Virus record (IMG/VR): IMGVR_UViG_3300046011_002895 | Location: 1 to 37,750 of that record | Source of the DNA: a virus | Length of the DNA: 37,750 nt | Direction: 5' to 3' (one strand) | Shown here: positions 4,343-30,262 of the stretch, in pieces | Numbering within the stretch: position 1 is the first letter of the stretch | Layout of the letters: each line of letters opens with the position of its first letter | Notes under the pieces: generated by a model | What the model saw: the letters and a program-made list of their open reading frames with translations, nothing else | Told to the model about the DNA's origin: nothing | Databases searched by the model: none | Made by a program: the position numbers and the translations under genes

Positions 4343-5953
4343 CTATCTACGTTCTCTAGATTTAGATGCAACGGGTTCCTGTTTTGTGGGCCCTTTTCTA
4401 GCTTTTAGTCCTTGCACTGAATGCGTCGGTGCTGGTGTATCTATACCCGGCACGGGTTTTGCAGGTTGACTGTATTGATCTTTAGGTTTGCCTGCGTTAA
4501 AACTAAAACTAATTTTACGGCTGGGTTTAGTTCTTGCTGTATAACTATCAGCATCTACTTCGATTCGGCCGTTGAACACTGGTGGCCAGACAACTTTAAA
4601 TTGGCTATAATGCAACCCGCCTTCTTTGTCTGTTTTTGTTTTAGCATAAACTTGAACCAAACTACTTTTGTTCAATACTTGTTTAAAAAAGTCAGTGATT
4701 TTTTCACTGTCTTCATTTAACATACCAGCTACATACTTTGCACAGATTGCTAATAAATGAAATCCTAATTGATATTCTGGATGAGTAGCATCTGGTTGAT
4801 AGGGTATAGTTTCCTTGAGCATTTCCCACCGAGGTGGCAATTGATCTACATGTTTAATATCTTTATTGTAGATACTCATTAAAAAATCTACATCAGAAGG
4901 ATCAAGAATTCCATACTCCTGTGCTAACACTAAAGGCCCTTCAATGGCGCTATTCGTATCTAATATTTCAACTGCATCGATTTCATTTTTGAATTTAGTT
5001 TTAAAATTACTACCAAAATCAGTGTTTTCTAAAGTTTCTGCAATTGTCGCTGTGCTAGGTCTACCGCCGCCCGAACTGTCTTTAACACTAATATCAACTT
5101 TTTCATCTCCAAACCAAATTGTAGCATCAATAAGTTTTTCTGCTTTAGCGGGGAAACTTGCTGCGGTTGCTTGCTGCCAAGTATATCCCATGGGCTTTAA
5201 CAATTGTTCATTCACCATATTGTAATCACCAGTTACAAAATTGCCGCTTTGTAACGCTATAGGTGCTGCTAATTCACTTAGTTTAATTTCAATAGCACTT
5301 TGAAATTCTGCTAGGCCAGGAACCCCAGTAGTATTTCCCAGTTGAACATTCTTAATCAGTTCGGGTAATCCTTTTTTTAACTCTATAGGCATATTACTTT
5401 GAGATAAACCTGCACTTACATTTTGAACTAGTTGTCTAATACTATATTTGGTCCCTTCCTCAACAAAATCTGTAGGCTCAATCGGAATAGCTGCTTTTTT
5501 CATTTGTGCAGTTTGAGCCCACAGTCCAGTTTCTTTAGCAAAATTTGTAGTTTGCCAATAGATACCATTTGGTCCCAAACTTTTTTTGGCTATAAATTTT
5601 TTGGCAAATACATATACGTCGCCTTTACTATTTTTCATAATACAAACCATAGCAGCTCGGCCATAACTAACCCCAAACACATTGACCTGTAATGGATTTA
5701 CTTGTTCTACTATGTCTTGTATTGCAGTATCTAAAGCTGCAGTTCCTTTTTGTTGCGGAGTGTCTTCATATTTGTATTCGGGATCTGGAGGCACAATTTG
5801 AACATCTGTTAATGTATACTCTTCTTTTGTGTTTGCATCAACAAACGGAATGTCTTTTCCGCCTTGAATTTCTATCCATCTACGTGCTATTCCGCCTGTG
5901 CTTTCCTCAAGATCGATAGCTTCAATTAGGTCAATATATTTTCTTAAATCCAT
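4343..5953 (-). CDS. Large hypothetical protein with capsid-targeting-like N-terminus
   Basis: 536 aa from ATG 5953 (MDLRKYIDLIEA); an upstream TTG would add four residues. Known function: none recognised. The N-terminus resembles the short peptide that sends T4 internal proteins into the prohead, with a candidate protease site after LIE (residue 11). The body contains a predicted alpha/beta part (VNVFGVSYGRAAMVCIMKN, about 90-110), a motif DISVKDSSGGGRPS near 285-300, and a Pro/Lys-rich disordered C-terminus ending SKSRERR. The DxxxK spacing of DISVK invites comparison with PD-(D/E)xK nucleases, but the middle acidic residue is missing, so I do not claim it. A late-promoter-like box lies 28 nt upstream, fitting a virion protein. 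Confidence 0.65.
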   Translation of the reverse strand: MDLRKYIDLIEAIDLEESTGGIARRWIEIQGGKDIPFVDANTKEEYTLTDVQIVPPDPEYKYEDTPQQKGTAALDTAIQDIVEQVNPLQVNVFGVSYGRAAMVCIMKNSKGDVYVFAKKFIAKKSLGPNGIYWQTTNFAKETGLWAQTAQMKKAAIPIEPTDFVEEGTKYSIRQLVQNVSAGLSQSNMPIELKKGLPELIKNVQLGNTTGVPGLAEFQSAIEIKLSELAAPIALQSGNFVTGDYNMVNEQLLKPMGYTWQQATAASFPAKAEKLIDATIWFGDEKVDISVKDSSGGGRPSTATIAETLENTDFGSNFKTKFKNEIDAVEILDTNSAIEGPLVLAQEYGILDPSDVDFLMSIYNKDIKHVDQLPPRWEMLKETIPYQPDATHPEYQLGFHLLAICAKYVAGMLNEDSEKITDFFKQVLNKSSLVQVYAKTKTDKEGGLHYSQFKVVWPPVFNGRIEVDADSYTARTKPSRKISFSFNAGKPKDQYSQPAKPVPGIDTPAPTHSVQGLKARKGPTKQEPVASKSRERR

Positions 5954-5981
5954 GGTAATGTCCAAAATAAGTTGTTATTCT

Positions 5982-10877: not shown

Positions 10878-13800
10878 TTATTTTTTTGACTTGTTGCCCC
10901 AATTTTTGGCGCCCATGTTGCGGCATCTTTCCATCGCTCCACTGGCATACGCACTTGGAATAACTTTATATCTTGCTTTTACTTTATAATAGCAAGCATC
11001 CTTTTTTTCAGCCAAAGCAGAGCTACTGTATGCTGGTCCGCCGCATTCTGGGCAACTTATTCGACCTTCCGTCAAACCATGCTTTTCGGCAATGTCATTA
11101 AGATCGACTCCACGCTCACTTGCAAATTCAGTAAAATCAGCGTCAATGTCAAATTCATATGCATTGTATAGTGCAGTAAAACCTTTGGCCATGTCTTGTT
11201 GGAATGCTTTATATATTTCTGCAATAGTTTCCCGATCTTCTGGTTCTTCTCTAGTTTTAATAAACTCTTTCAACAGAGATAAAATTATCTTTGTTTCATT
11301 GCTGATTTTTTTTGTCTGTACGGTCTGTGTTTTATTAAATGCTTGATAGATATCTTGTTTGACATTGAATCCCTGGTCCATGAGTTGTTCTGCTACATGA
11401 TCTCTAACAAAGGTATCCATGGCATAAAATGCTTTGATACCTGCTGCCATTCCTGATGATATAAATGTTTGACCAACTTTGATGATCTTGGCAGCATCAG
11501 CCCCGTCGCCTTCATCGTTATACATCTCAACATAATCTTGGCCGATTTCGATGATAGCATTGCCGTAGTCTAGAGGTCCATTTCCACCCTGGCCGTCACC
11601 AGTAGCAAATTCATTTAATGAATCTTCCGCCACACCTTGCTGGACTTGCGCCACTTCAACTTTACCTGCTTGTACTTCACGCTCGTAGCCATGATTGCGA
11701 GCCCAACTTAATCCGGTTTTCATAGCCGCCTCTTTATTACTGACCCCACCAAACTTTATCATTGGCTCACCGTTGATCATTACTTGCCATTCAATGTTGC
11801 GCGGTGAATCGGGTTTATATTTTTCTGGATCGTAAGGTTTATGGGGTGGCACTTTTTGACCTGAACCTACATTATGTGATCCACCTGCTCTTGAGATTTG
11901 CTGTTTAGCTTGCCATACTTCGTGCCATAGTATGTCAACTAATTTACTACCTAACTCTTCTTCTGCCCACTCTAGCATACTTTCTCTAAATTCTGTATCG
12001 TAACTAAAGACTGTATCTGCAAGATCAAACCAATTTGGAGAATTATTACTGCGTAGTTTATCATACGCTTCTCTAACATCAGAAAGATCTTGCTTCCAAT
12101 TTATTTCTTCTGGTTCTTCTTCGTCATAGTCAGTATCTTGAGCAGTTCCTAATGATATCATTACACCAGATAAAAACTTCTTTACTGCTGATACTGTTTT
12201 AGGAGGAGCAGGCTTGAAGAATTTTGCATAAGTTTGCTTCATCAAATCACTGTAATAATTTTCCGCCAAACCTTGCTGACCCTGGCTTATTCTGTGCAGA
12301 GTATTCAATTCATCCACTAGTGCCTGCCCGGCCTTTTTGATATCTCCTGTATGTTTCATTACAGTGTATGCAGTTTCGATAGCCGCCATCATTTGTTCTT
12401 CAGAAGGTTGCCATCCTTTTTTCGGATCTAAAACTCTTTTAAATAACTGCATTAAACCGGGCAATGTTTTTATTAGATGTGCTCTATATTCTTCTGCTGC
12501 TTGATCATGCTGGCCTTCGTTCATTCTTCCTGATAATCTATTCAGTGCACGATCTAGTCCTCGTTCTCTTTTTCGATCAACTGGGGTATCGAAAGGGGCC
12601 TTATTATACTGATCACCTGCACGGCCCGATTTAAAACTGTCACTGGTAGATCGAAGTAGTTGATCTTGAACATTAGCTTTAATATACTTTTTTAATAGTT
12701 CTTTACTTACTTCGTTTATAGATTCTTTTTTTGTTTTAACATTAATTGCTGCGCCTGTTCGTTCTGCATTAGGATCTTCTCTGCGCTTTCTCCGAGCTGC
12801 ACTGGCACGGCCTTTCTTGCCTAGTGCATGTGCTTTAGCTTGTGGTAAACATTTTGGCTTGCCTTCACTGCTATCACCTCGAGCACAGTCACCGCGAATT
12901 TTTCCGTCAGGTCCAAATCGCACCCATTTTTCTTTAAACCATTTGCGCAGATTTTCAGTTAATTCTTGCTGTCTTTTTTTTTGCTCCATTACCCCCTTAC
13001 CGCCGGGTAATTCTCTATCAAACGTAGTGCTACCATAAACTCCATAGCCATAATCGTAAACTCCCATCTTTGGGAATTTCATTTTAGGAAATTTTAGGCT
13101 GATCCAGTCTTTAGCACGTTCTATTTCGTCTTTGCTTTCAAAGTAGTAAACACCATCTTCAAATTTAAACTCAAAACCTTTTTCATTTAAAAGTCCAGCA
13201 AGATTTTGATTTTCATTGTCATCTACTATGTTCTCTGCACTGTCACGCTCAACATTTTGTAAACTGTTAGCAAAAGGACTTTTAACATTTATATCTGCAG
13301 AATCTTCTTCTATATCTTCTGCATCCATTGCTTGTTTTTTATTGTCCTTATCTGTGGGATTTTCCTCAAACTCTCTTACTATATCATTCGCCCAAGATTC
13401 GAATTCCTGTTCTGTGGCCATTTTACGACGATGATACTCTCTAAATACAACTGGCAAAGCATTAGTAATTCTATCATCGAATACTTTTCTTACAAACCGT
13501 TCTCTCAATTCAGTCAGATCAAATTCAGTTTCTTCCAACACTTCTGGTTGCCATAATTCTCGATATTGATCGTAACCGCGCTGACTGCGAATTAGATGTA
13601 AATCACTATGCAATCTGCCGTAATGATCTATGGCACTTTCTACCATTTGCTGAGTTTCAATGTCTTCAAATGTTCTACCGCGCATGTTGCGAACAAACAT
13701 GCGAAGGTCGGCCATCTCTTTAATCATTCGTCCTATATGCTGGGAAAAGTCGTCGTGCAGTTGTCCGCCATTTTTTACATGTCTTGCGTAAGCTCTTGCA

Positions 13801-14396
13801 CCGTTAATAGTAGTGCCTTCGGGAAGTTTAAATCTTTCACCTTGGGAATTCTCGATGTAGAACGATTCAACATTTCGACTTCTTGCACCAGGAATAGTTT
13901 CGTCTACTATGGGTTTACTATGGCGTGCAATGATACGCACATCTTCTAATTGTTGATAACTGCTGCGACGTGTGCCATACAATTTAGATTCATTAACATT
14001 GACTTCATCTTTGGAATACACTTCTGAATCTTTATTCAGGTATTTTAAATCACGTAAATTTAATCCACTTTTTCCAATATCTCTAACATCAAATACTGCA
14101 CCTTCCGCCATTGCAAAAAATCGTAATTCTTTTAAAAACTTGAACCACTGCTTTTTTTCAATTGGTGTCATGAACTGGTCTAAGTCTTGAGCATAGAAAA
14201 CTTTTAAATCCTTACCCAATACACTGATAGTAATAGAACCAAAGTTTTTACCGTTAGCAGCATAATCAAAGCTAAAAAATCTTGCTTTAGCAGGATCCAG
14301 TGTGCTTTCACGTTTTTCATCACGTATAGCAACCGGACTAAAACGATTGCGTAACTTGTCAAATAATCCAGATGCAGTTTGGTCAATATTTCTCAT
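10878..14396 (-). CDS. 1172-aa mosaic protein, candidate internal-head polyprotein A
   Basis: A very large, probably virion-internal protein built from unlike pieces. Residues about 150-325: HSKP/GARSRN-containing helical domain (EDVRIIARHSKP, GARAYARHVKNGGQ). About 490-555: basic Cys-containing cassette (RGDCARGD, GKPKCLPQAKA, GRASAARRKRR). About 562-623: cassette VSKELLKKYIKANV to RERGLDRALNRLSG. About 868-912: WQVMINGEPMIKFGG. C-terminus: CPECGG, then the basic module DACYYKVKARYKVIPSAYAS and MGAKNWGNKSKK. Pieces are separated by (I/L)xE sequences: SINE562, GLAE712, SLNE929, GLTE1110, ALAE1130, plus GVAE924. These fit the T4 prohead protease consensus. It lies right after gp17; ATG 14396 has no ribosome site and follows a CATAAATA box by 7 nt. 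Confidence 0.8.
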   Translation of the reverse strand: MRNIDQTASGLFDKLRNRFSPVAIRDEKRESTLDPAKARFFSFDYAANGKNFGSITISVLGKDLKVFYAQDLDQFMTPIEKKQWFKFLKELRFFAMAEGAVFDVRDIGKSGLNLRDLKYLNKDSEVYSKDEVNVNESKLYGTRRSSYQQLEDVRIIARHSKPIVDETIPGARSRNVESFYIENSQGERFKLPEGTTINGARAYARHVKNGGQLHDDFSQHIGRMIKEMADLRMFVRNMRGRTFEDIETQQMVESAIDHYGRLHSDLHLIRSQRGYDQYRELWQPEVLEETEFDLTELRERFVRKVFDDRITNALPVVFREYHRRKMATEQEFESWANDIVREFEENPTDKDNKKQAMDAEDIEEDSADINVKSPFANSLQNVERDSAENIVDDNENQNLAGLLNEKGFEFKFEDGVYYFESKDEIERAKDWISLKFPKMKFPKMGVYDYGYGVYGSTTFDRELPGGKGVMEQKKRQQELTENLRKWFKEKWVRFGPDGKIRGDCARGDSSEGKPKCLPQAKAHALGKKGRASAARRKRREDPNAERTGAAINVKTKKESINEVSKELLKKYIKANVQDQLLRSTSDSFKSGRAGDQYNKAPFDTPVDRKRERGLDRALNRLSGRMNEGQHDQAAEEYRAHLIKTLPGLMQLFKRVLDPKKGWQPSEEQMMAAIETAYTVMKHTGDIKKAGQALVDELNTLHRISQGQQGLAENYYSDLMKQTYAKFFKPAPPKTVSAVKKFLSGVMISLGTAQDTDYDEEEPEEINWKQDLSDVREAYDKLRSNNSPNWFDLADTVFSYDTEFRESMLEWAEEELGSKLVDILWHEVWQAKQQISRAGGSHNVGSGQKVPPHKPYDPEKYKPDSPRNIEWQVMINGEPMIKFGGVSNKEAAMKTGLSWARNHGYEREVQAGKVEVAQVQQGVAEDSLNEFATGDGQGGNGPLDYGNAIIEIGQDYVEMYNDEGDGADAAKIIKVGQTFISSGMAAGIKAFYAMDTFVRDHVAEQLMDQGFNVKQDIYQAFNKTQTVQTKKISNETKIILSLLKEFIKTREEPEDRETIAEIYKAFQQDMAKGFTALYNAYEFDIDADFTEFASERGVDLNDIAEKHGLTEGRISCPECGGPAYSSSALAEKKDACYYKVKARYKVIPSAYASGAMERCRNMGAKNWGNKSKK

Positions 14397-14403
14397 AATA
14401 TAT

Positions 14404-14411
14404 TATTTATG
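14404..14411 (-). promoter_or_regulatory. Late-promoter-like box (CATAAATA) 7 nt before a start codon
   Basis: CATAAATA on the minus strand between gp17 and the 1172-aa gene. If it works like a T4 late promoter, transcription would begin about 1-2 nt before the ATG, giving an almost leaderless mRNA. Confidence 0.45.
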
Positions 14412-14427
14412 CGGGTCAGTTTTAAAT

Positions 14428-15993
14428 TTACATCATAATAAAAGGCATGGGCATGATGATTTCATCCGACGAATCTTTTAATTTTTCGTCTAAATTACTG
14501 TCATATTCTCTAAGAAATATTGCCATTCTAACTACTAATAACATAGCCATTACTAGGTCATCAGTCTCTCCCAGCTTGGCCGCATAGCTGTTATTAGATG
14601 CTACAAAAGTTTTTAATTCACTAACTAATGATTTACTGGCAATATGTAATTTTTTAGTTTCGACTAAATTTTTAAACTTCGCACACGCTGCCAGTTTAGA
14701 TTTATTTGTTGTGTTAAATCCTTTTCTATAGGCCCTTGCCTGCCCTGCCCGTTTGGGTTCACTTAAAAAAATACCTTTAAAGTTTTCTTCTCCAAATTCC
14801 GAAATAGTAATTAATGCTGCTTCACCAATTGTGTTATTTTCTACACTAAAATATACATCTGTAATGGTATCTATTTCTTCTGAAATATATTTTGTTATTT
14901 CACTTAAAATTTTTACTTGTTGTTGTATAGGCGTGCGATTATGCTGCCATTCCGCTACTTGGTGCATACTTGGCAGTTCGAGAACCTGTATTGCCGCAGG
15001 ATCCCCGCCTGTTCCTAAACTAGGATCTAATCCTACTAGATATATATTGCCTTTTTTGGGTTGTTTGTACCATCTTACCTGTCCTTGTTTTTGTATAGGA
15101 TCTATGCCAGCAAGTTCCGTTAACATAATAGGATTAATCAGCGTCTCATCATAGATAATGAATTCACAATCCATTTCACGACGGAAGCGTTCTTCACCTA
15201 ATTGCGCACGTTGTTCTGCTTCCCACTTTTCGTCTCTATCCGGATGTTCTTTCCAATAACTACGAAATGGTTTAAATCCATTAATGCCTAATTCTGTTTC
15301 ATTGCCATATTCATCTATACGTTTATTGGCTTGCCGCCAAATTTGTGCAAACTGATCTTCATCACTGTTCGGGGTGCTTGTAATAATACATTTACCACCA
15401 GTGGCCAAAGTTGGGCTAATAGAAGTCCAAAATTCCTTTGCTATTGTAGGTCTTACGAAAGCAAACTCATCACAATAAAGCAACGAAATACTCATACCCC
15501 GTCCCGTATTTTCAGTAGTTGTAGCACTGACTATTCTAGATCCATTATCAAAATCTATACTGCCTTTGTTATAACTTGTTACACCTGCCCGGATAAAATT
15601 TGGAACACTTTCGTATCCGTATCTAATACGCTGCATAATTTCCTGACTGCCTGTATATTTGTGTGCAGCCACTAAAATTGTGCTGTCCGGAACAAACATA
15701 GCATACCAAAGTAAATATCCTGCAGCAGTTGTGCTCTTGCCAGTTTGCCTGGGCATTAAACTTATACTGTATCTATAATTATGATAAGTTTCTACTAAAC
15801 GTTCTTGATATTCAAAAGGCTCATATTGCATCCTACCTCTAGTAGGATGTTGAATATAAAAATAGTTTGAGAGAAAATGGGCAGGCCCAGAAACAGGATC
15901 TGCACATTTAATAACCTCACGTAGTTGACTTTCTGTAAAAGTCTCTTTAGTATTTGGTTTTTTGATTAAAACGGTTTCAGACAAAGGTTTCAT
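14428..15993 (-). CDS. gp17: Large terminase subunit gp17 (packaging ATPase-nuclease)
   Basis: 521 aa (T4 gp17 is 610). It pumps DNA into the prohead and cuts the concatemer. ATPase domain: PFEYQERLVE, Walker A MPRQTGKS (80-87), Walker B LLYCDEFAF (171-179) with catalytic Glu176, coupling motif ITSTPNS (204-210). RNase H-like nuclease domain: GLDPSLGTGGD (321-331), acidic VENN (384-387) and TDDLVMA (477-483) give the catalytic Asp/Glu/Asp set. It is shorter than T4 gp17 mainly at the N-terminus and ends in a Met-rich tail (MPMPFIMM). No ribosome site is seen at ATG 15993; a TAAATA box lies 18 nt upstream. The small subunit gp16 lies 6 kb upstream rather than adjacent. Confidence 0.96.
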   Translation of the reverse strand: MKPLSETVLIKKPNTKETFTESQLREVIKCADPVSGPAHFLSNYFYIQHPTRGRMQYEPFEYQERLVETYHNYRYSISLMPRQTGKSTTAAGYLLWYAMFVPDSTILVAAHKYTGSQEIMQRIRYGYESVPNFIRAGVTSYNKGSIDFDNGSRIVSATTTENTGRGMSISLLYCDEFAFVRPTIAKEFWTSISPTLATGGKCIITSTPNSDEDQFAQIWRQANKRIDEYGNETELGINGFKPFRSYWKEHPDRDEKWEAEQRAQLGEERFRREMDCEFIIYDETLINPIMLTELAGIDPIQKQGQVRWYKQPKKGNIYLVGLDPSLGTGGDPAAIQVLELPSMHQVAEWQHNRTPIQQQVKILSEITKYISEEIDTITDVYFSVENNTIGEAALITISEFGEENFKGIFLSEPKRAGQARAYRKGFNTTNKSKLAACAKFKNLVETKKLHIASKSLVSELKTFVASNNSYAAKLGETDDLVMAMLLVVRMAIFLREYDSNLDEKLKDSSDEIIMPMPFIMM

Positions 15994-16011
15994 AAAATAA
16001 ATATTTTATTG

Positions 16012-16019
16012 TATTTAAG
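16012..16019 (-). promoter_or_regulatory. Late-promoter-like box (CTTAAATA) for gp17
   Basis: CTTAAATA on the minus strand, 18 nt before the gp17 ATG. The CTTAAATA form resembles late promoters proposed for T4-like cyanophages. It is back-to-back with the sigma70 promoter of the HNH gene. Confidence 0.5.
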
Positions 16020-16055
16020 TCAAAATTCGATTAAATTTAACTATTCGAAAATAGA

Positions 16056-16084
16056 TTGATTAATATTTAAAATTATCGTATAAT
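16056..16084 (+). promoter_or_regulatory. Sigma70-type promoter for the HNH gene
   Basis: On the plus strand TTGATT (16056-16061), 17-nt spacer, TATAAT (16079-16084). It lies 26 nt before the HNH start codon, so this gene can be expressed early and independently of the leftward late operons. Confidence 0.75.
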
Positions 16085-16110
16085 AAATTTCTTTTTTTGA
16101 GTATATCAAA

Positions 16111-16638
16111 ATGTCGGACGTTCTACTATTAAATTCGGATTTTAATCCAATTAGTGTACTTCCATTGAGTGTAATCTCATGGAAACATGCAATTAATTTA
16201 TATTTCATGGATAGAATTACAATCATCGAGGAATATGAAGATTGGGTAATCAGAAGTGAAAAATTGGCTATAAAAGTTCCCAGCGTTTGTATGACTAAAC
16301 AGTATCTAAATTTTAAAAAGACACCAAAATTCAGCAGATCCAATATGTACTTAAGAGATCTATATCAGTGTCAATACTGTGGTGAAATATTTACTGCTAA
16401 AGATTTGACATTAGACCATGTTATTCCAAGAAGTAAAGGCGGCAAAACAACTTGGGAAAACAGTGTGTCTGCATGTAAATCTTGCAATCATAAAAAAGGC
16501 GCAAGAACAGATATGTATCCAATGCGTAAACCTTTTAAGCCAGATCATTTTCATTTAATAAACAAATGGAAACAACGGCCTATCCAAGTCCGCCACAAAA
16601 GCTGGTATACATATTTGGGAATTGAGCCACCAAATTAA
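16111..16638 (+). CDS. HNH endonuclease
   Basis: 175 aa with a complete HNH zinc-coordinated nuclease core: CQYC (87-90), LDHVIPRSKGGK (101-112) with the catalytic His, Asn117, and CKSCNHKKG (122-130). Such enzymes nick or cut DNA; in T4-like phages stand-alone HNH genes are often mobile homing endonucleases. The N-terminal 80 residues (VLLLNSDFNPISVLPL) match the N-terminus common in bacterial HNH proteins of this type. It is on the opposite strand to all neighbours, has its own sigma70-like promoter, and overlaps the next minus-strand gene by 4 nt at its 3' end. This argues for insertion between gp17 and the internal-protein genes. A packaging role is the alternative. Confidence 0.9.
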   Translation: MSDVLLLNSDFNPISVLPLSVISWKHAINLYFMDRITIIEEYEDWVIRSEKLAIKVPSVCMTKQYLNFKKTPKFSRSNMYLRDLYQCQYCGEIFTAKDLTLDHVIPRSKGGKTTWENSVSACKSCNHKKGARTDMYPMRKPFKPDHFHLINKWKQRPIQVRHKSWYTYLGIEPPN

Positions 16639-16844
16639 ATTGGTTTTTCGTTTGTAAGATAAGGCTTACTGAACCAAAGTTTAAACCAGGCCTCGGTGCC
16701 TGGTTTTATATTATGTTCTCGCATTAATTTTGCTGTTTCTGTTCCTGTAACACTAATATTGCTACCGGGATAACCTTTATATTCAGTCCATTTTGGTCGA
16801 TTGTTGATACCTGACAGGAATTTAAGTTGTTCTATATCGTCCAT
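16635..16844 (-). CDS. Small hypothetical protein (69 aa)
   Basis: MDDIEQLKFLSGINNRPKW then a second part with NIKPGTEAWFKLWFSKPYL. The latter Trp/Phe-rich motif (GTExWFxLWFSKPYLT) recurs in small proteins of T4-like aquatic phages, function unknown. Its ATG overlaps the stop of the upstream 125-aa gene (TAATG), so it closes the internal-protein cluster that starts at 21594. Confidence 0.7.
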   Translation of the reverse strand: MDDIEQLKFLSGINNRPKWTEYKGYPGSNISVTGTETAKLMREHNIKPGTEAWFKLWFSKPYLTNEKPI

Positions 16845-17221
16845 TATATACCAAATTTATTTTTTTTAGGTTTTGCCACAGGACTAACTTTATATGTAGA
16901 TTCAAGTTCCTGACTTTTAAGATCGCCGTTGTTTAGGTCTTTGTGCCAACTGCCTACAGCTTTGAATGCTTGCTGAAGCATCTTTTGCTCCTCGGCAGTA
17001 TAGGGTGCAGCAATATCATGTCTACCAGCCCAACTTTCGTGATCTATGTTTAAAGGGTTCTCTCCATCTGCCATAGCTGCAGCCATCATTACACGATTTA
17101 ATTCGTAAATCCTATCTGCAAATTCTGCATCACGAAAAAGATTAAGACCTACAGTAGATTGCTGCAGTCTTTTAGCGATCTTTGCAGGACTACCTTCAAC
17201 AATAACTTCTTTGATTTTCAT
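16844..17221 (-). CDS. Hypothetical protein with capsid-targeting-like N-terminus (125 aa)
   Basis: Begins MKIKEVIVEGSPAK: a short amphipathic peptide ending in IVE, a candidate prohead-protease site before Gly10. The body has a helical segment (LFRDAEFADRIYELNRVMMA), SWAGRHDIAAPYT, and a Lys-rich end (KPKKNKFGI). No enzymatic motif is seen. It follows the upstream gene directly (TAA-ATG) and overlaps the next by TAATG. I infer an internal head or head-associated protein. Confidence 0.65.
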   Translation of the reverse strand: MKIKEVIVEGSPAKIAKRLQQSTVGLNLFRDAEFADRIYELNRVMMAAAMADGENPLNIDHESWAGRHDIAAPYTAEEQKMLQQAFKAVGSWHKDLNNGDLKSQELESTYKVSPVAKPKKNKFGI

Positions 17222-17899
17222 TTACCAAGCTCTACAAGACCAATAACGTGCTTTCCAGCGTGGGCCAGGGTTATCACAATTATGTCTTGCTCTAAATGAT
17301 TTACGACGTTTAGGGTTAGACTTTTTAATCTTCATCTTCTTGTCGCCAAAATTTACCTTGACAACATTTCCTTTAGGACCACGGACGTAAACTTTTGATT
17401 TTTTAACATCACCTGCCATTGGTTTACCTAATTGAACCTTGCGACCTTGATATTCTGCTTCCATTACGTCATCTTGACCGTATTCGTCTACTAATTGTTT
17501 ATGAATGATGTCAATAATCTGTTCAAAGTCATCGTCAGGGTGTAAGCCATAATCGATCACAATATCATCATACATTTCCTGCAATTTTTCAGAAACGTAG
17601 TTTTCAATTTTGTCTTGAGGCTGTGTCATTACTTGATAAATGTCCTTAGTGCCATTTACTAAATCTTGAAACAGCATATTAACTTCTTTCATTGCGCCCT
17701 CAACAACCATTTGTCCTTTGGATTCAAATGTGGCACCTGCCATTTTTAAAAGTGCTAAAGTTTTTAAATCAGCTTCAAGCAGAACACCATCTTGTAATAT
17801 ATCTACAACCCCAGTGTGAATTACAGTTTCGCCTAGTTCAATATCAAAACTATCACCTAACGCGATAGTTTCGTTTACGATAATGTCTGCTATTCTCAT
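17222..17899 (-). CDS. Candidate internal head protein with conserved basic C-terminal module (225 aa)
   Basis: N-terminus MRIADIIVNETIALG resembles a targeting peptide (candidate cut after VNE). Residues about 15-150 are acidic with a motif VVDILQDGVLLEADL. The C-terminal 75 residues form a sharply different basic module: YQGRKVQLGKPMAGDVKKSK, VYVRGPKGNVVKVNFGDKK, then RRKSFRARHNCDNPGPRWKA and RYWSCRAW. This last module, with two Cys and many Arg/Lys, is one I have met at the C-termini of several uncharacterised T4-like phage proteins and probably binds DNA or protein (inference). Adjacent genes abut with TAA-ATG junctions. Confidence 0.7.
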   Translation of the reverse strand: MRIADIIVNETIALGDSFDIELGETVIHTGVVDILQDGVLLEADLKTLALLKMAGATFESKGQMVVEGAMKEVNMLFQDLVNGTKDIYQVMTQPQDKIENYVSEKLQEMYDDIVIDYGLHPDDDFEQIIDIIHKQLVDEYGQDDVMEAEYQGRKVQLGKPMAGDVKKSKVYVRGPKGNVVKVNFGDKKMKIKKSNPKRRKSFRARHNCDNPGPRWKARYWSCRAW

Positions 17900-20800
17900 T
17901 TAACGTACCTTTATACTTTCGTACTCTTTCATTAATGATAAAGAAATACTTTCAGCTACATCTTTCACTGCCAATGGATTATCACTGAATCTTGCACTGC
18001 CATGCTTGTTCATTTTTTTGGTTTTTCCAGCAACTTCGCCGTCGCCCCCTTGTAGTTGTGTTTCTAAAGGAATTACTTCTTCCTCAGGTGTAGTGCTGGC
18101 ATGATATCGATCATCTTTGGCTTCTTCCATTGGAACTACAGTAACTTCAGCTTCTGGCATTGAACCGGACTGTCCTTTCATACCTGCTAAAGAAAGAAGC
18201 TGCATTAACTCTAATGCTGCATCACCATCTGCAGTTACAGTAACACTTTTAGTACCATCTGTGCTCATGTTAGTTGTAACGTTCATGCGACCTTCTTGAT
18301 CTGTCATGCCGTTTGCCATAGGGCCCATGTCCCCACATTCATCAAGTTTGCTTTCTTTTACTGGATATGTTTTACCATCAACTTCGAACTCTTTGGCGCC
18401 AGATGCCTTGGCTTTGGCTAAAGCTCCAGAAAATTCGTTGCCTTCGTCCATGTCATCTTCTTTAAAATGACTTTCATTTTGTGTTTTCATATCGGAAGTC
18501 GGAGCAGGTTGACTTGGCGCTGAATTTGCCTTTTCTCTGTCTGCCATTACCTGTGCTTGGGTTTTTTCACCTGATAAAATTTGCACTATTTCTGCAGATG
18601 TCAAATGAGGTTTCCGTGGAGCAGGCTGACTCTCTTTAACCTTTTTGCCACCTGCTCGTAAATCTGCCAGATCATCAGCTTCAATATCGCCATCTTTATC
18701 AACATCTAACTTATGTTGTTTTCCATGCAACTTGCCTTCCATGCCAGCAAGACGCATCATTTCTGACAACTCATCTTCTTCCATATTACATTTAGATGCG
18801 GGAGTGAAAGGTGGACATTTAGGTTTGATTTCGTTGTCTCTGTTTCCAGTCTGAGGTTGTGGTTGAGTACTTGGTTGCGTACTTGGTTGAGTACTTGGTT
18901 GACTTTGTTGAGAACTTTGGTTCATTCTTTCTATTTGGTCTGGAGTAAGTTTAAGTGTTCTATCTTCCACAGAGCCGTCCGGCATAATGATCATTTTTTC
19001 GTCTAACTTTTCGTCTGTACCAGCAAGACGCATCATTTCTGATATATCATCTTCTCGCATATCACTATCTAAAGTAGCAGGATTAACTTTATTTCCAACT
19101 AATCCAGGAATATCAACACCTCGATCAGAAAGTCGTTGTGCTGCCATGCTAGGACCAAGACCTCTTTCTTTACTGTAGACGTTACTGTCCCCTGGTTTCA
19201 TATACATACTATTTTTTACTCTATCCACATCTGTCTGAAACTGTGTGTTGTTTGGCTGACTTTCAGCAACTTCTTTGTCAGTATCGACTTCCGAACGTTT
19301 GTCTGGTCCTTGCTGTGGCTTGGGCGCAGGACTTGGTGTAGATTTAGCTGGTGCAGGTTTTAGATGTGGATTTAATTTATAATCTATATCCGGAACTAAT
19401 TCACCTGTTTTAGGGTCACGCTTATAAGTAGGCTCCATTGGAGCAGGTAAACGACTGTCAGTTTGACGTTCAACTAACTGTAAAAAAGCTTCAGCAATCA
19501 TCCGATTGTTTTCTGCAATCCAACTTTCCTTCATTTTATTTTTACTGCCGGCAGGTCTACCACGACCACGTTTTTCACCAGTAGACGTAGCTTTCTTTTC
19601 ACCGGCACGTACTACACGATTTTTTACGCCTTTTGGGCGGCCTCTGCCACGCTTTTCTCCTTCGGGTTTAGCAATCTTTTTCTTAGTTTGACCATCGTCA
19701 TCTTCGTCATCGTCGCCTTGATATTCTGTACCGTAATGGCCTTTATGTATTACACGATCAGTGGCACCTTGTTTTGGCACATCTTTCATTAGGTCACGCC
19801 AGTAATCTGCGTCGCTTTCTAAAATTACATTTAAACTTTCTAAGATTTCTTCTTTTGTATAGCCATTCTGGAATGCTCGATGAATTGCTTCGCTAACGTG
19901 CTGAGGTAAACCTTTGTGCTTAGTTGCTGCAAAATCACGGGCTGCTTTTTTGCTCATGCCTTTTGCTGCCTTAGCAACTTCCGGACTTGCAGGTTTACCA
20001 CCTTTTTTTGCAGCATGTACCATACCCATGAATTTCTGTTGGGCACGACTTACTGCTTTTTCATCTAATTGTTCTTCGTCCATTTTGTCGTGCTTGGCAC
20101 GTATCATTGCCATTTTTTCTTTGCTAGCCCCTTCGCGGCCTGCTTTCTGAAGAGCTTTCATACCTTGCTCACCATATTTCTTCTTACCTAAATAGGCTTG
20201 CAATCCAGATTCTTCTACTTCGCCTTCCGCTATAACTTTGTGACCTTCCTCTTTTTTCTTTCTTAGAAATCGTTTGAATTCATATTTGTCCTGAGTTTTA
20301 AAAACTACACGGCCATTGTATATGACCTTGAATGTATTAACTGGATCGCCGTATTTGTTGTCAGGAGATTTCTCACTGGAAGTCTTAGCCCAATACGTAT
20401 CCTTGGGAGATTTATCACGAGATTCAGAATCTCGTGTTGAGCCTTCTGCTATATCTTTTTTGCCATAAATTTCATCATACATGTATGGGTCATGCTTTTC
20501 TAAGAATCGCTCTACGGCTTCATCCCATGTTTTTATTCCATCAAACTCCCCAACTATTACACCATTAATTAATTTCTTATACATGTTGTTCCACTCGGGC
20601 CCGTAATGATCACGGACTTGTGCTGGAATCCTTTCCCAAATTGCATCCGCAAATTGTATATCATTTAATTGACCTGTGGATTCTGTTACTTTCTGCTCAC
20701 CAAGTTTCTTACCAGCAGCAGCGGCTTTTTGGAACTTTTCTTTTCCATACTTCTTACGACCTATGCTGGCAGCAACGGCTTCTGGATTTTCTGCGCTACC

Positions 20801-20971
20801 ACCTTTCTTAATAGCAGCCACAGTCTTCTTAAAGCCCATGTACTTTTCATTTACCTGCTCAATACTTTCTTGTAATTGAGTCTTAGGTTTAGCAGCCTGC
20901 TGAGTAGGCTCGGGCTTTTGCTCGATTAATTTATTAAAATTGTTTAGGATTTTGTAAATGTCGTTGCTCAT
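17900..20971 (-). CDS. 1023-aa mosaic protein, candidate internal-head polyprotein B
   Basis: N-terminus MSNDIYKILNNFNKLIEQ has a candidate protease site (LIE17). Cassettes in order: GRKKYG piece (about 40-92); acidic alpha/beta piece (100-175); KVIYNGRVVFKTQDKYEFKR (215-234); second KKYG piece (255-290); DUF3008-like piece (305-358, QQKFMGMVHAAKKGG and DFAATKHKGLP); two AT-hooks (RGRGRP near 441 and 468); Pro-rich linker; SEMMRLAG copies (644 and 736) around a STQP repeat; EF-hand loop DVDKDGDIEADD (756-767); EFEVDGKTYPVKESKL (861-876); beta-rich DGTKSVTVTADGDAAL (905-920). (I/L)xE junctions include DIAE176, VIAE249, QLDE304, ILE385, WIAE487, MIAE494. Extremely Lys/Glu-rich and probably largely disordered. 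Inference: DNA-associated capsid-internal cargo. Confidence 0.8.
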   Translation of the reverse strand: MSNDIYKILNNFNKLIEQKPEPTQQAAKPKTQLQESIEQVNEKYMGFKKTVAAIKKGGSAENPEAVAASIGRKKYGKEKFQKAAAAGKKLGEQKVTESTGQLNDIQFADAIWERIPAQVRDHYGPEWNNMYKKLINGVIVGEFDGIKTWDEAVERFLEKHDPYMYDEIYGKKDIAEGSTRDSESRDKSPKDTYWAKTSSEKSPDNKYGDPVNTFKVIYNGRVVFKTQDKYEFKRFLRKKKEEGHKVIAEGEVEESGLQAYLGKKKYGEQGMKALQKAGREGASKEKMAMIRAKHDKMDEEQLDEKAVSRAQQKFMGMVHAAKKGGKPASPEVAKAAKGMSKKAARDFAATKHKGLPQHVSEAIHRAFQNGYTKEEILESLNVILESDADYWRDLMKDVPKQGATDRVIHKGHYGTEYQGDDDEDDDGQTKKKIAKPEGEKRGRGRPKGVKNRVVRAGEKKATSTGEKRGRGRPAGSKNKMKESWIAENNRMIAEAFLQLVERQTDSRLPAPMEPTYKRDPKTGELVPDIDYKLNPHLKPAPAKSTPSPAPKPQQGPDKRSEVDTDKEVAESQPNNTQFQTDVDRVKNSMYMKPGDSNVYSKERGLGPSMAAQRLSDRGVDIPGLVGNKVNPATLDSDMREDDISEMMRLAGTDEKLDEKMIIMPDGSVEDRTLKLTPDQIERMNQSSQQSQPSTQPSTQPSTQPQPQTGNRDNEIKPKCPPFTPASKCNMEEDELSEMMRLAGMEGKLHGKQHKLDVDKDGDIEADDLADLRAGGKKVKESQPAPRKPHLTSAEIVQILSGEKTQAQVMADREKANSAPSQPAPTSDMKTQNESHFKEDDMDEGNEFSGALAKAKASGAKEFEVDGKTYPVKESKLDECGDMGPMANGMTDQEGRMNVTTNMSTDGTKSVTVTADGDAALELMQLLSLAGMKGQSGSMPEAEVTVVPMEEAKDDRYHASTTPEEEVIPLETQLQGGDGEVAGKTKKMNKHGSARFSDNPLAVKDVAESISLSLMKEYESIKVR
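18861..18900 (-). repeat. In-frame 12-bp tandem repeat encoding STQP repeats
   Basis: Three tandem copies of GGTTGAGTACTT (one with C for A) encode Ser-Thr-Gln-Pro repeats inside the 1023-aa protein. This is likely an unstable linker that can vary in length by slippage. Confidence 0.85.
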
Positions 20972-20973
20972 AA

Positions 20974-21594
20974 TTATTTTCTTCCACGGCCTACTGGCGG
21001 TAATTTAGGTTTGTGTCCACCTAAGGGACTTGTTTTTCCAACTGGTAAATCGTTTGTAGTTTTTGCTTGCGGAGTTGAGCCACCTTCAGGAGCTTCATAT
21101 TGGTACTTGCGTGTTTCTTCTAATTCTTTAATTAAATTAGGAATCCTTGCATCACCGACCAAAGCTTCTCCACCAGGACCTGGTCTTTCGCGTTCCATAT
21201 TATCTTGCAATAACACAGATTCACCAGCTTTGCCACCGATATTACTTTGCTCTAAGCCATCCCTTGTTGCTTCAAACGGACTATTTTTTGGAGTAACTTT
21301 AATACATGCTAAATTAATTCCCGCACGCTCTGCCATTAAAGTTCTTACTTGTTCGTCATTGCATGGGTAGTGAAAAGTAGCATCCATCAAGTGCACTTCA
21401 ACTGGGCCTAAACTAGGAAAATCTGGACTTTCTTGAATAGGTAATCTTTTTGGTTTTGTTATAGAATCCAATTTGTATGCTTCTAAAACTGTTTTGATTT
21501 TAGACATTAGATCATCAGGCAGCTCACAGGCTAGTCTAATCCTAAAATCAAACGTTTTATGACTTTCAGTTAGATAAGCTTTAAACGATTTCAT
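20974..21594 (-). CDS. Candidate internal head protein with T4-type targeting peptide (206 aa)
   Basis: N-terminus MKSFKAYLTES closely parallels the T4 internal-protein targeting peptide (MKTYQEFIAE followed by A), with a predicted cut after LTE10. An alpha/beta domain follows (TFDFRIRLACELPDDLMSKI, VEVHLMDATFHYPCNDEQV, AGINLACIKVTPKNSP), then a disordered Gly/Pro/Lys-rich tail ending PPVGRGRK. The fold looks like a small ferredoxin-like domain, but I name no family. It has a good ribosome site (AGGAATTAAA) and a late-promoter-like box (21614-21621), making it the head of the internal-protein operon. Confidence 0.72.
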   Translation of the reverse strand: MKSFKAYLTESHKTFDFRIRLACELPDDLMSKIKTVLEAYKLDSITKPKRLPIQESPDFPSLGPVEVHLMDATFHYPCNDEQVRTLMAERAGINLACIKVTPKNSPFEATRDGLEQSNIGGKAGESVLLQDNMERERPGPGGEALVGDARIPNLIKELEETRKYQYEAPEGGSTPQAKTTNDLPVGKTSPLGGHKPKLPPVGRGRK

Positions 21595-29273: not shown

Positions 29274-29316
29274 GAAACTGATAAAAAAAGTCAAATTGAC
29301 TGCCCTTTGCAAAGGT

Positions 29317-29682
29317 ATGGGTAAATACCAAATGCAAAGACCATTATGTGCAGTATGTGGGCACACGCCAGCTGCTGTGAACTATATCAAAAACAACATC
29401 CATCATTATAGAAAGATGTGTGATAGTTGTATTAGGAAGGGTAAAAAATTAAAACCTAAGCCGTCGGCATGGTTTAAAGCAGGCTATAGGAAAAAAATGC
29501 ATTGCGAAAAATGTGGGTATGTTGCAAAATTTCCTGACAAACAACTTACAGTTTATCATGTAGATGGAAATTTAAAAAATTTATCTTCAATAAATTTAAA
29601 ATCTGTTTGTTTAAATTGCAGAGTCGAAATTGCCAATAGTAGATTGCCTTGGCGAGAAAGTCCAATTACACCAGATTTTTAA
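29317..29682 (+). CDS. Zinc-ribbon protein, candidate degenerate endonuclease
   Basis: 121 aa from ATG 29317 (MGKYQMQRPLCAVCGH); ATG 29332 is an alternative. Two metal-binding halves are visible: CAVC with a later CDSC (MCDSCIRKGKK), and CEKC (HCEKCGYVAKF) with CLNC (SVCLNCRVEI). The segment LTVYHVDGNLKNLSSINLKS between the second pair resembles the H-x-D-G-x-L-x-N stretch of HNH nucleases, so it could be an HNH/homing-type enzyme or a DNA-binding zinc protein. It is on the plus strand between leftward gp18 and the dNMP kinase, overlapping the latter's 3' end by 17 nt, which suggests an inserted mobile gene like the HNH gene at 16111. Confidence 0.7.
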   Translation: MGKYQMQRPLCAVCGHTPAAVNYIKNNIHHYRKMCDSCIRKGKKLKPKPSAWFKAGYRKKMHCEKCGYVAKFPDKQLTVYHVDGNLKNLSSINLKSVCLNCRVEIANSRLPWRESPITPDF

Positions 29683-30262
29683 GAGCCCTGTACAAATCTT
29701 CTATACTAGCATTGTTTTCAATAACAGCATCAAAATCTGTTGTGGCCCAACTGTATTCACTAGCATGAATTTCGGGCCAATCAACTTTCATACACTCTGG
29801 ATGAAATCTTGCAGTTTTAAACCACTCAGGGTCTGGACCTCTAACAATTCTGACTACTCTACCGCCTGCACGCCGTATGGCTGTGATTTCATTAGGAAAT
29901 CTGCAGTCACTGATTACAATGCTGTCTTCTGACTTTCGTAGTTTATTTTCCAAACTGGCAATCCAAATGTCATCATGAAATCCCTGACGACAAACTTCTG
30001 TACCCCAAAGTTGCAAAATAAGTCTCGGAGTTAATCCAGGCATTTTTAATCTTTCACTCCACCATGGATCAATTTCTTCACGCCATTCACGAGCATGTTT
30101 AGTACGTCCTTCCAATAACTCTCGATCCCAACTAAACACCGATGCTACTGCATCTTTTAATGTAGCAGCAAAACTGTCTCGTTTGAAACCATGGAAGTTA
30201 ACAAGATAATCGGCTGCAGTATCCTTGCCTGCGCCAATCAAACCGCAAATACCAATAATCAT
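29666..30262 (-). CDS. gp1: Deoxynucleoside monophosphate kinase (T4 gp1 family)
   Basis: 198 aa. It phosphorylates dNMPs for phage DNA synthesis. P-loop GLIGAGKDT (7-15), then TAADYLVNFHGFKRDSFAA and LKDAVASVFSWDRELLEG, the substrate/lid region REEIDPWWSERL, GTEVCRQGFHDDIWIASL, and a core strand VISDCRFPNEITAIRRAGG with the conserved DxRFxNE motif of phage dNMP kinases. Somewhat shorter than T4 gp1 (241). Upstream ribosome site ACGGAG. The 3' end overlaps the convergent zinc-ribbon gene. Confidence 0.9.
   Translation of the reverse strand: MIIGICGLIGAGKDTAADYLVNFHGFKRDSFAATLKDAVASVFSWDRELLEGRTKHAREWREEIDPWWSERLKMPGLTPRLILQLWGTEVCRQGFHDDIWIASLENKLRKSEDSIVISDCRFPNEITAIRRAGGRVVRIVRGPDPEWFKTARFHPECMKVDWPEIHASEYSWATTDFDAVIENNASIEDLYRALKNLV

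Follow-up and report, generated by a model that had tools for sequence, protein, structure and literature searches.

The subject of this analysis is a 37.75-kb stretch of viral DNA (positions 1 to 37,750 of the IMG/VR record IMGVR_UViG_3300046011_002895), to which we refer in its entire length as the window. It is a fragment of the genome of a T4-type phage and carries genes for the terminase large subunit (TerL), the tail sheath and a head-closure protein of the gp4 type, as well as a cluster of 17 tRNA genes. TerL is flanked by two long open reading frames (ORFs), whose products of 1172 and 1023 aa will be called polyprotein A and polyprotein B. A sequence-only reading of the window had claimed that these are giant mosaic proteins with (I/L)xE sites of the T4 prohead protease type at the joints of their modules, packed in the capsid and released as many small DNA-binding peptides. 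Both ORFs are indeed present and intact, and the (I/L)xE sites listed by that reading are found at the given residues in 12 of 12 cases. We propose, with a probability that we put at about 0.7, that A and B are precursor polyproteins of cargo processed by a T4-type prohead protease, i.e. a modular variant of the T4 internal-protein system.

The abundance of the motif is suggestive, not decisive. In comparison with shuffled sequence (I/L)xE is overrepresented, as the sequence-only reading had expected, both in A (18 vs. 11.6, P=0.03) and in B (16 vs. 8.1, P=0.003); the comparison is not specific, because the neighboring TerL scores higher than either of them (15 vs. 6.6, P=0.0008), and density alone was rejected as evidence for this reason. 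With the broader pattern [ILVMF]xE, B ranks first (z=4.3) and A second (z=3.0) in the window.

The position of the motif makes a stronger case for protease-type sites at the joints than its density. We fetched 86 related loci, used conserved residues to define six unrelated cassettes, and retained only the instances with dissimilar upstream sequence (less than 34% identity at positions -16 to -5). The [ILVMF]xE motif directly precedes the cassette in 81 of the 85 non-redundant joints, whereas positions drawn at random from these proteins give 2.1 and, in 2000 trials, never more than 8. This holds for CPK (28/28), KWS (14/14), SAYASG (13/16), the DUF3008-type cassette (7/7), KKYG2 (4/4) and CWKGY (15/16); CPK is over-represented, as CPK patterns prevailed in the query that found most of the loci. 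The DUF3008-type module led to a second set of contigs, in which 27 of 27 of its joints have the motif; the few instances of CPK, KWS, CWKGY and SAYASG in this set, and profile starts that are in several cases off by one residue, led us to take only the DUF3008-type result as a clean replicate. By a looser count, P1 is Glu in 127 of 135 instances and P3 is L, I, V or M with few exceptions. An alternative version of the test, with joints taken from BLAST boundaries, gave blurred results (up to 10.8% against a baseline of about 2.1%, with a rise in the control proteins too), hence our reliance on defined module starts. Further clear joints, absent from the sequence-only reading, are LTE481/NLRKWFKEKW in A and VNE42/KYMGFKK and VEE254/SGLQAYLG in B (here and below a slash marks the predicted cut); one relative (L153) has VISE/KYMGFK, reminiscent of the former of the two joints in B.

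The cassettes behind these sites are shuffled between proteins. The expectation that they occur in varied order in related phages is borne out by 57 proteins with at least two core cassette types, which display 11 arrangements (e.g. CPK-SAYASG, SAYASG-CPK, CPK-KWS-SAYASG and SAYASG-CPK-KWS). In the nearest informative relative of A, found in L008, residues 1-556 of A are matched with 78% identity, residues 557-1105 are replaced by an unrelated, much shorter block, and the zinc-ribbon-like and SAYASG cassettes then match again; the edges of the exchanged block fall at xxE sites. KKYG2 belongs to B in the window, but to an A-type protein in relative G008 (L124). With a portable, predicted cleavage site directly in front of every cassette, single cassettes could be exchanged, dropped or transferred to another protein, giving a modular cargo set.

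The features of A, B and their neighbors are collected in Table 1. A matches phrog_727, phrog_23735, phrog_3477 and phrog_13484, the last of which is annotated as "virion structural protein". Its conserved N-terminal domain is joined to other cassettes in relatives; a fold search with its model (pLDDT 68.5) returned no PDB match, only phage proteins without assigned function. The CPxC motif of the zinc-ribbon-like cassette is invariant across 29 aligned sequences. Homologs of the SAYASG cassette in relatives match PF19197, and the model of the cassette, of modest confidence (pLDDT 67.5), shows a small helical segment. SAYASG also occurs in 18 metagenome-bin contigs (L224-L241) labeled as various bacteria and archaea, which are probably misbinned phage contigs and several of which lack the xxE joint. 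The DUF3008-like piece noticed in the sequence-only reading is real: PF11450 is below the cutoff with the whole of B and above it with the isolated piece (27.3 vs. 24 bits). The AT-hooks of that reading can likewise be recognized as AT-hook-like RGRGRP repeats, while of its EF-hand there remains an EF-hand-like loop with matches below the cutoff.

Table 1. Genes and cassettes in the part of the window around TerL (slash, predicted cut; charges are net charges)
Feature	Position	Strand	Remarks
Polyprotein A	10878-14396	-	1172 aa; intact ORF, directly downstream of TerL
A 1-420, conserved N-terminal domain	13137-14396	-	without obvious leader; homologs in L008, L009, L002, L118, L124; phrog_13484 at 77-276
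CPK cassette, A 482-562 (NLRKWFKEKWVRFGPDGK...)	12711-12953	-	LTE481 before, INE562 at end; charge ~+12.8
Zinc-ribbon-like cassette, A 1111-1130 (GRISCPECGGPAYSSSALAE)	11007-11066	-	bounded by LTE1110 and LAE1130
SAYASG cassette (DUF5872-like), A 1131-1172	10881-11006	-	LAE1130 before; charge ~+9.7
TerL (T4 gp17 type)	14428-15993	-	PF03237, PF17289; adjoins A
125-aa neighbor	16844-17221	-	leader MKIKEVIVE/G
225-aa neighbor	17222-17899	-	leader MRIADIIVNE/T (17870-17899); phrog_7595
C-terminal basic cassette of 225-aa neighbor, AEYQGRKV...ARHNC	17225-17458	-	charge ~+19.9
Polyprotein B	17900-20971	-	1023 aa; intact ORF, on the other side of TerL; two small genes follow
B 1-17, possible leader MSNDIYKILNNFNKLIE, then predicted cut	20921-20971	-	other module proteins start similarly, with MSNDIYKILE/ and MSDDIYKILE/
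KKYG1/MGFKK cassette, B 43-92	20696-20845	-	VNE42 before; charge ~+8.8
KKYG2 cassette, B 255-304	20060-20209	-	VEE254 before
DUF3008-type cassette, B 305-361	19889-20059	-	PF11450; LDE304 before; charge ~+10
B 386-487, two AT-hook-like RGRGRP repeats	19511-19816	-	between ILE385 and IAE487; seen in the sequence
EF-hand-like loop, B 738-780 (DVDKDGDIEADDL)	18632-18760	-	EF-hand matches sub-threshold
206-aa neighbor	20974-21594	-	T4-format 10-residue leader MKSFKAYLTE/S; weak match (E 0.13) to a virion structural family

The same tripeptide class ends putative capsid-targeting leaders. Three genes close to B, absent from the sequence-only reading, encode proteins with such leaders (Table 1), of which B seems to have a longer variant. 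Homologs of the 225-aa neighbor start with MKSLKDYLAE/S, and in the second locus set the joint motif precedes the basic cassette of this protein in 6 of 7 new contexts. In relatives, module proteins have a leader of 8-10 residues followed immediately by a cassette, as in MRANEIITE/NLRKWFKEKW, MRYQEILE/ACWKGYHK, MRAGEFITE/AWSEKYKRSI and MRLTDFITE/KCWKGYEKK. The format is that of T4, where the first 10 residues of the internal protein IPIII are enough for targeting (PMC9026906). Among 2472 unique N-termini from all loci, the pattern M[KR]x(3-7)[ILVF]xE is found 181 times vs. 44.6 after shuffling, i.e. in an approximately fourfold excess, while the controls with Glu replaced by Asp (33 vs. 39.9) or Lys (39 vs. 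45.2) stay at background. A leader-like peptide SSILKGLxE (loose pattern) has 16 occurrences in the loci, all of them in module proteins, six N-terminal, eight internal and two C-terminal. Peptides of the SSIMKGL type close the polyproteins of L063 and L066 at the C-terminus. Far from the A-B cluster, an ORF of about 540 aa (window 4343-5965, minus strand) has the leader-like start MDLRKYIDLIE/A and may encode a further packaged protein.

The protease that would act on these sites is encoded by the relatives. T4 gp21 cuts after L/I-X-E (PMC9026906), and gp21 was found in 14 of 15 tested contigs that carry modules and exceed 200 kb in length. In relatives, homologs of portal, gp21, gp22 and gp23 are grouped, with gp22 having its own gene between gp21 and gp23. 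In each of six inspected contigs, the propeptide of the capsid protein carries (I/L)xE sites; in one relative the N-terminus of this protein reads MSQELLE/GRWDETKDALLE/GLSGSKRSSMSVILE/NTKKYLRE/NASSG.

Phage isolates offer a possible link between the cassettes and virions. SAYASG occurs in 364 phage records, all but a few of them from cyanophages; for the DUF3008-type module the number is 88. The cyanophage T4-GC 119 proteins (S-SM1_115, S-SSM5_108, Syn19_101 and S-SSM7_236) and the similar S-SCSM2R_117 are built from cassettes of the same or related families, joined at xxE, and several of the phages have the gene next to the terminase genes. Cyanophage S-SCSM1 has two relevant products annotated as virion proteins: ORF93, of 69 aa, is mostly a single DUF3008-type module 72% identical to that of B, and ORF92 is a mosaic with a 26-residue piece common to the homologs of B. 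Mass spectrometry of CsCl-purified S-SCSM1 virions detected 45 phage proteins (PMC9602691), and we infer that the annotation of ORF92 and ORF93 derives from this experiment. The C-terminus of ORF93 (L094 7995-8204), RTFKEFLEYIE, resembles a capsid-targeting leader, and the NMNAT of S-SCSM1 reported in virions (L094 5188-6417) starts with MKSFLQFLKEA, a leader in the T4 format.

The putative cargo would not be limited to small basic pieces. Pfam scans of A and B revealed no enzymatic domain, and those of A, B and 50 related proteins no peptidase, one Hint module aside. Some polyproteins of relatives contain GNAT, LysM, sigma-70 region 4, CTP_transf-like, GP88 or peptidoglycan-binding domains. 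Because of these enzyme-type and host-interaction modules, the part of the sequence-only reading that speaks of small DNA-binding peptides is too narrow, while its picture of mosaic polyproteins with prohead-protease sites at the joints agrees with the comparative data. Sigma-70 region 4 lies inside cassette polyproteins of L019 (9719-13363, residues 247-295) and L083 (2-2293, residues 713-755), hinting at packaged transcription factors, and in L014 (9254-10927) a nucleotidyltransferase (NMNAT-like) domain is fused to cassettes.

According to the proposed scenario, B and its small neighbors would enter the prohead core, probably by means of their short N-terminal leaders, and A would enter by another route, possibly through its conserved N-terminal domain. 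The gp21-type prohead protease of the phage would then cut after (hydrophobic)-x-Glu at the module joints, releasing small peptides, for the most part basic and in many cases with Cys; in relatives, domains of the enzyme or host-interaction type would be set free as well. The released pieces would stay with the DNA in the head and probably be ejected into the host. The cassettes, the conserved site at their joints, their shuffling, the leaders, and the presence in relatives of gp21 with matching sites in the capsid protein can be read from the sequences themselves. In our judgment, cleavage at the joints by a gp21-type protease is likely. Retention of the released cassettes in the head is reasonably probable, and for their delivery into the host we see about an even chance. 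DNA binding by the cassettes is plausible, as judged from the charges of the CPK, SAYASG and DUF3008-type cassettes (Table 1) and from the AT-hook-like repeats.

Several observations weigh against this scenario. Gp21 was not found in the 37.75-kb window record, although its absence means little, because the contigs are fragments. A has no recognizable N-terminal leader, and the general, loose leader pattern is weak within single genomes (62 vs. 55.6 in G007). With strict I/L at P3 the motif is found at 60 of the 85 joints, P3 being often V or M, and in the second set SAYASG, mostly from marine genome bins, has the motif exactly at -1 in 2 of 9 cases. Cuts at the joints separate basic from acidic pieces no better than random cuts. 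T4-GC 119 is labeled hypothetical, not structural, in S-SM1 despite the virion proteomics of this phage; short Lys-rich peptides are easily missed when trypsin is used.

An unlikely explanation, yet the best of the alternatives, is that A and B are scaffold or core proteins in the manner of T4 gp22, gp67 and gp68, which gp21 would chop so that most pieces leave the head and nothing is delivered. Like A and B, these T4 proteins have many L/I-x-E sites in one chain; they are broken into many fragments, most of which are lost (PMC9026906). In the genomes of two relatives the gp22-like scaffold ranks top for [ILVMF]xE density with z=4.5 and 4.1, close to the value for B. However, gp22 and its kin form a helical scaffold, whereas the sites discussed here are not scattered through a coiled coil and lie at the edges of strongly conserved cassettes, which are basic, conserved in their Cys residues, and shuffled, and which are fused in relatives to GNAT, sigma-70 region 4, LysM and nucleotidyltransferase domains. 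Moreover, a lone cassette is annotated as a virion protein in S-SCSM1. In Pfam and phrog searches, A and B have their matches in families other than gp22.

Still less probable is the possibility that xxE is a fixed N-terminal part of the cassettes or a docking motif, and that the proteins remain uncleaved and multidomain in the virion or the cell, like the polyvalent proteins. This is suggested by a relative of the N-terminal domain of A in BFVD, named "large polyvalent protein-associated domain". On the other hand, the same tripeptide class, with variable P2 and P3, precedes six unrelated modules, ends T4-format leaders directly before the same modules, and is also found in the propeptide of the capsid protein. 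That the joints are mere artefacts of recombination, driven by short conserved DNA and devoid of function at the protein level, is very improbable: modules do recombine at these positions, but 14 different codons serve for P3 and both possible ones for Glu, which indicates that selection acts on the protein rather than on a DNA recombination seed, and the leader pattern is enriched with Glu, while its Asp and Lys versions are not.

The cargo polyproteins proposed here can be compared with several known systems. The T4 internal proteins (IPI, IPII, IPIII and Alt) also have leaders of 8-10 residues ending in (I/L/F)xE, with variable cargo behind the conserved leader, and depend on a gp21-type protease, which is found here in relatives; they differ in having a single cargo and one or two cuts, in contrast to many cassettes per ORF, each behind its own site. 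The ejection proteins of phiKZ and SPN3US (processed by gp175 and gp245, respectively) are matured by the prohead protease, packed in large heads and ejected, as we suppose for A and B; there, the cuts mainly remove propeptides, after S/A-x-E, and no string of shuffled cassettes is involved. The polyvalent proteins are likewise large mosaics thought to be packaged and injected, and their discoverers liken them to polyproteins (Iyer et al. 2017, PMC5512222); these, however, are discussed with embedded peptidase domains, whereas processing of A and B would occur in trans by the capsid protease. The T4-GC 119 proteins and S-SCSM2R_117 resemble A and B in their cassette families, their xxE joints and, in several phages, their location near terminase genes, but they are annotated as hypothetical only, are mostly shorter, and belong to phages of marine cyanobacterial hosts. 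Searches of the open-licence literature yielded no account of polyproteins of this kind in T4-like phages.

Polyprotein processing is best known from RNA viruses and retroviruses. If our proposal is correct, a DNA phage has turned its capsid-maturation protease into an enzyme of cargo release, and the internal-protein biology of T4 becomes a modular platform. This would also provide a role for the abundant "hypothetical" families phrog_727, phrog_23735, DUF5872, phage DUF3008 and T4-GC 119, as well as a sequence rule that predicts packaged proteins from genomes, making the head contents of environmental phages testable by mass spectrometry. We lean slightly toward an even broader view, in which T4-like phages from the sea and other sampled environments would share a widespread system of polyproteins processed in trans, whose portable sites and occasional internal SSILKGLxE leaders would allow for a customizable head load of peptides, enzyme-type domains and host-interaction modules delivered at infection.

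Two further ORFs of the window deserve mention. An HNH-endonuclease-like ORF (16111-16638, plus strand) lies between TerL and B, on the strand opposite to both, and is possibly a free-standing homing endonuclease. A Cys-rich HNH-like ORF (29296-29682, plus strand) overlaps the end of a dNMP-kinase-like gene (29666-30262, minus strand), and a similar short Cys-rich ORF adjoins the head genes in relative G008 (L119 2482-2847).

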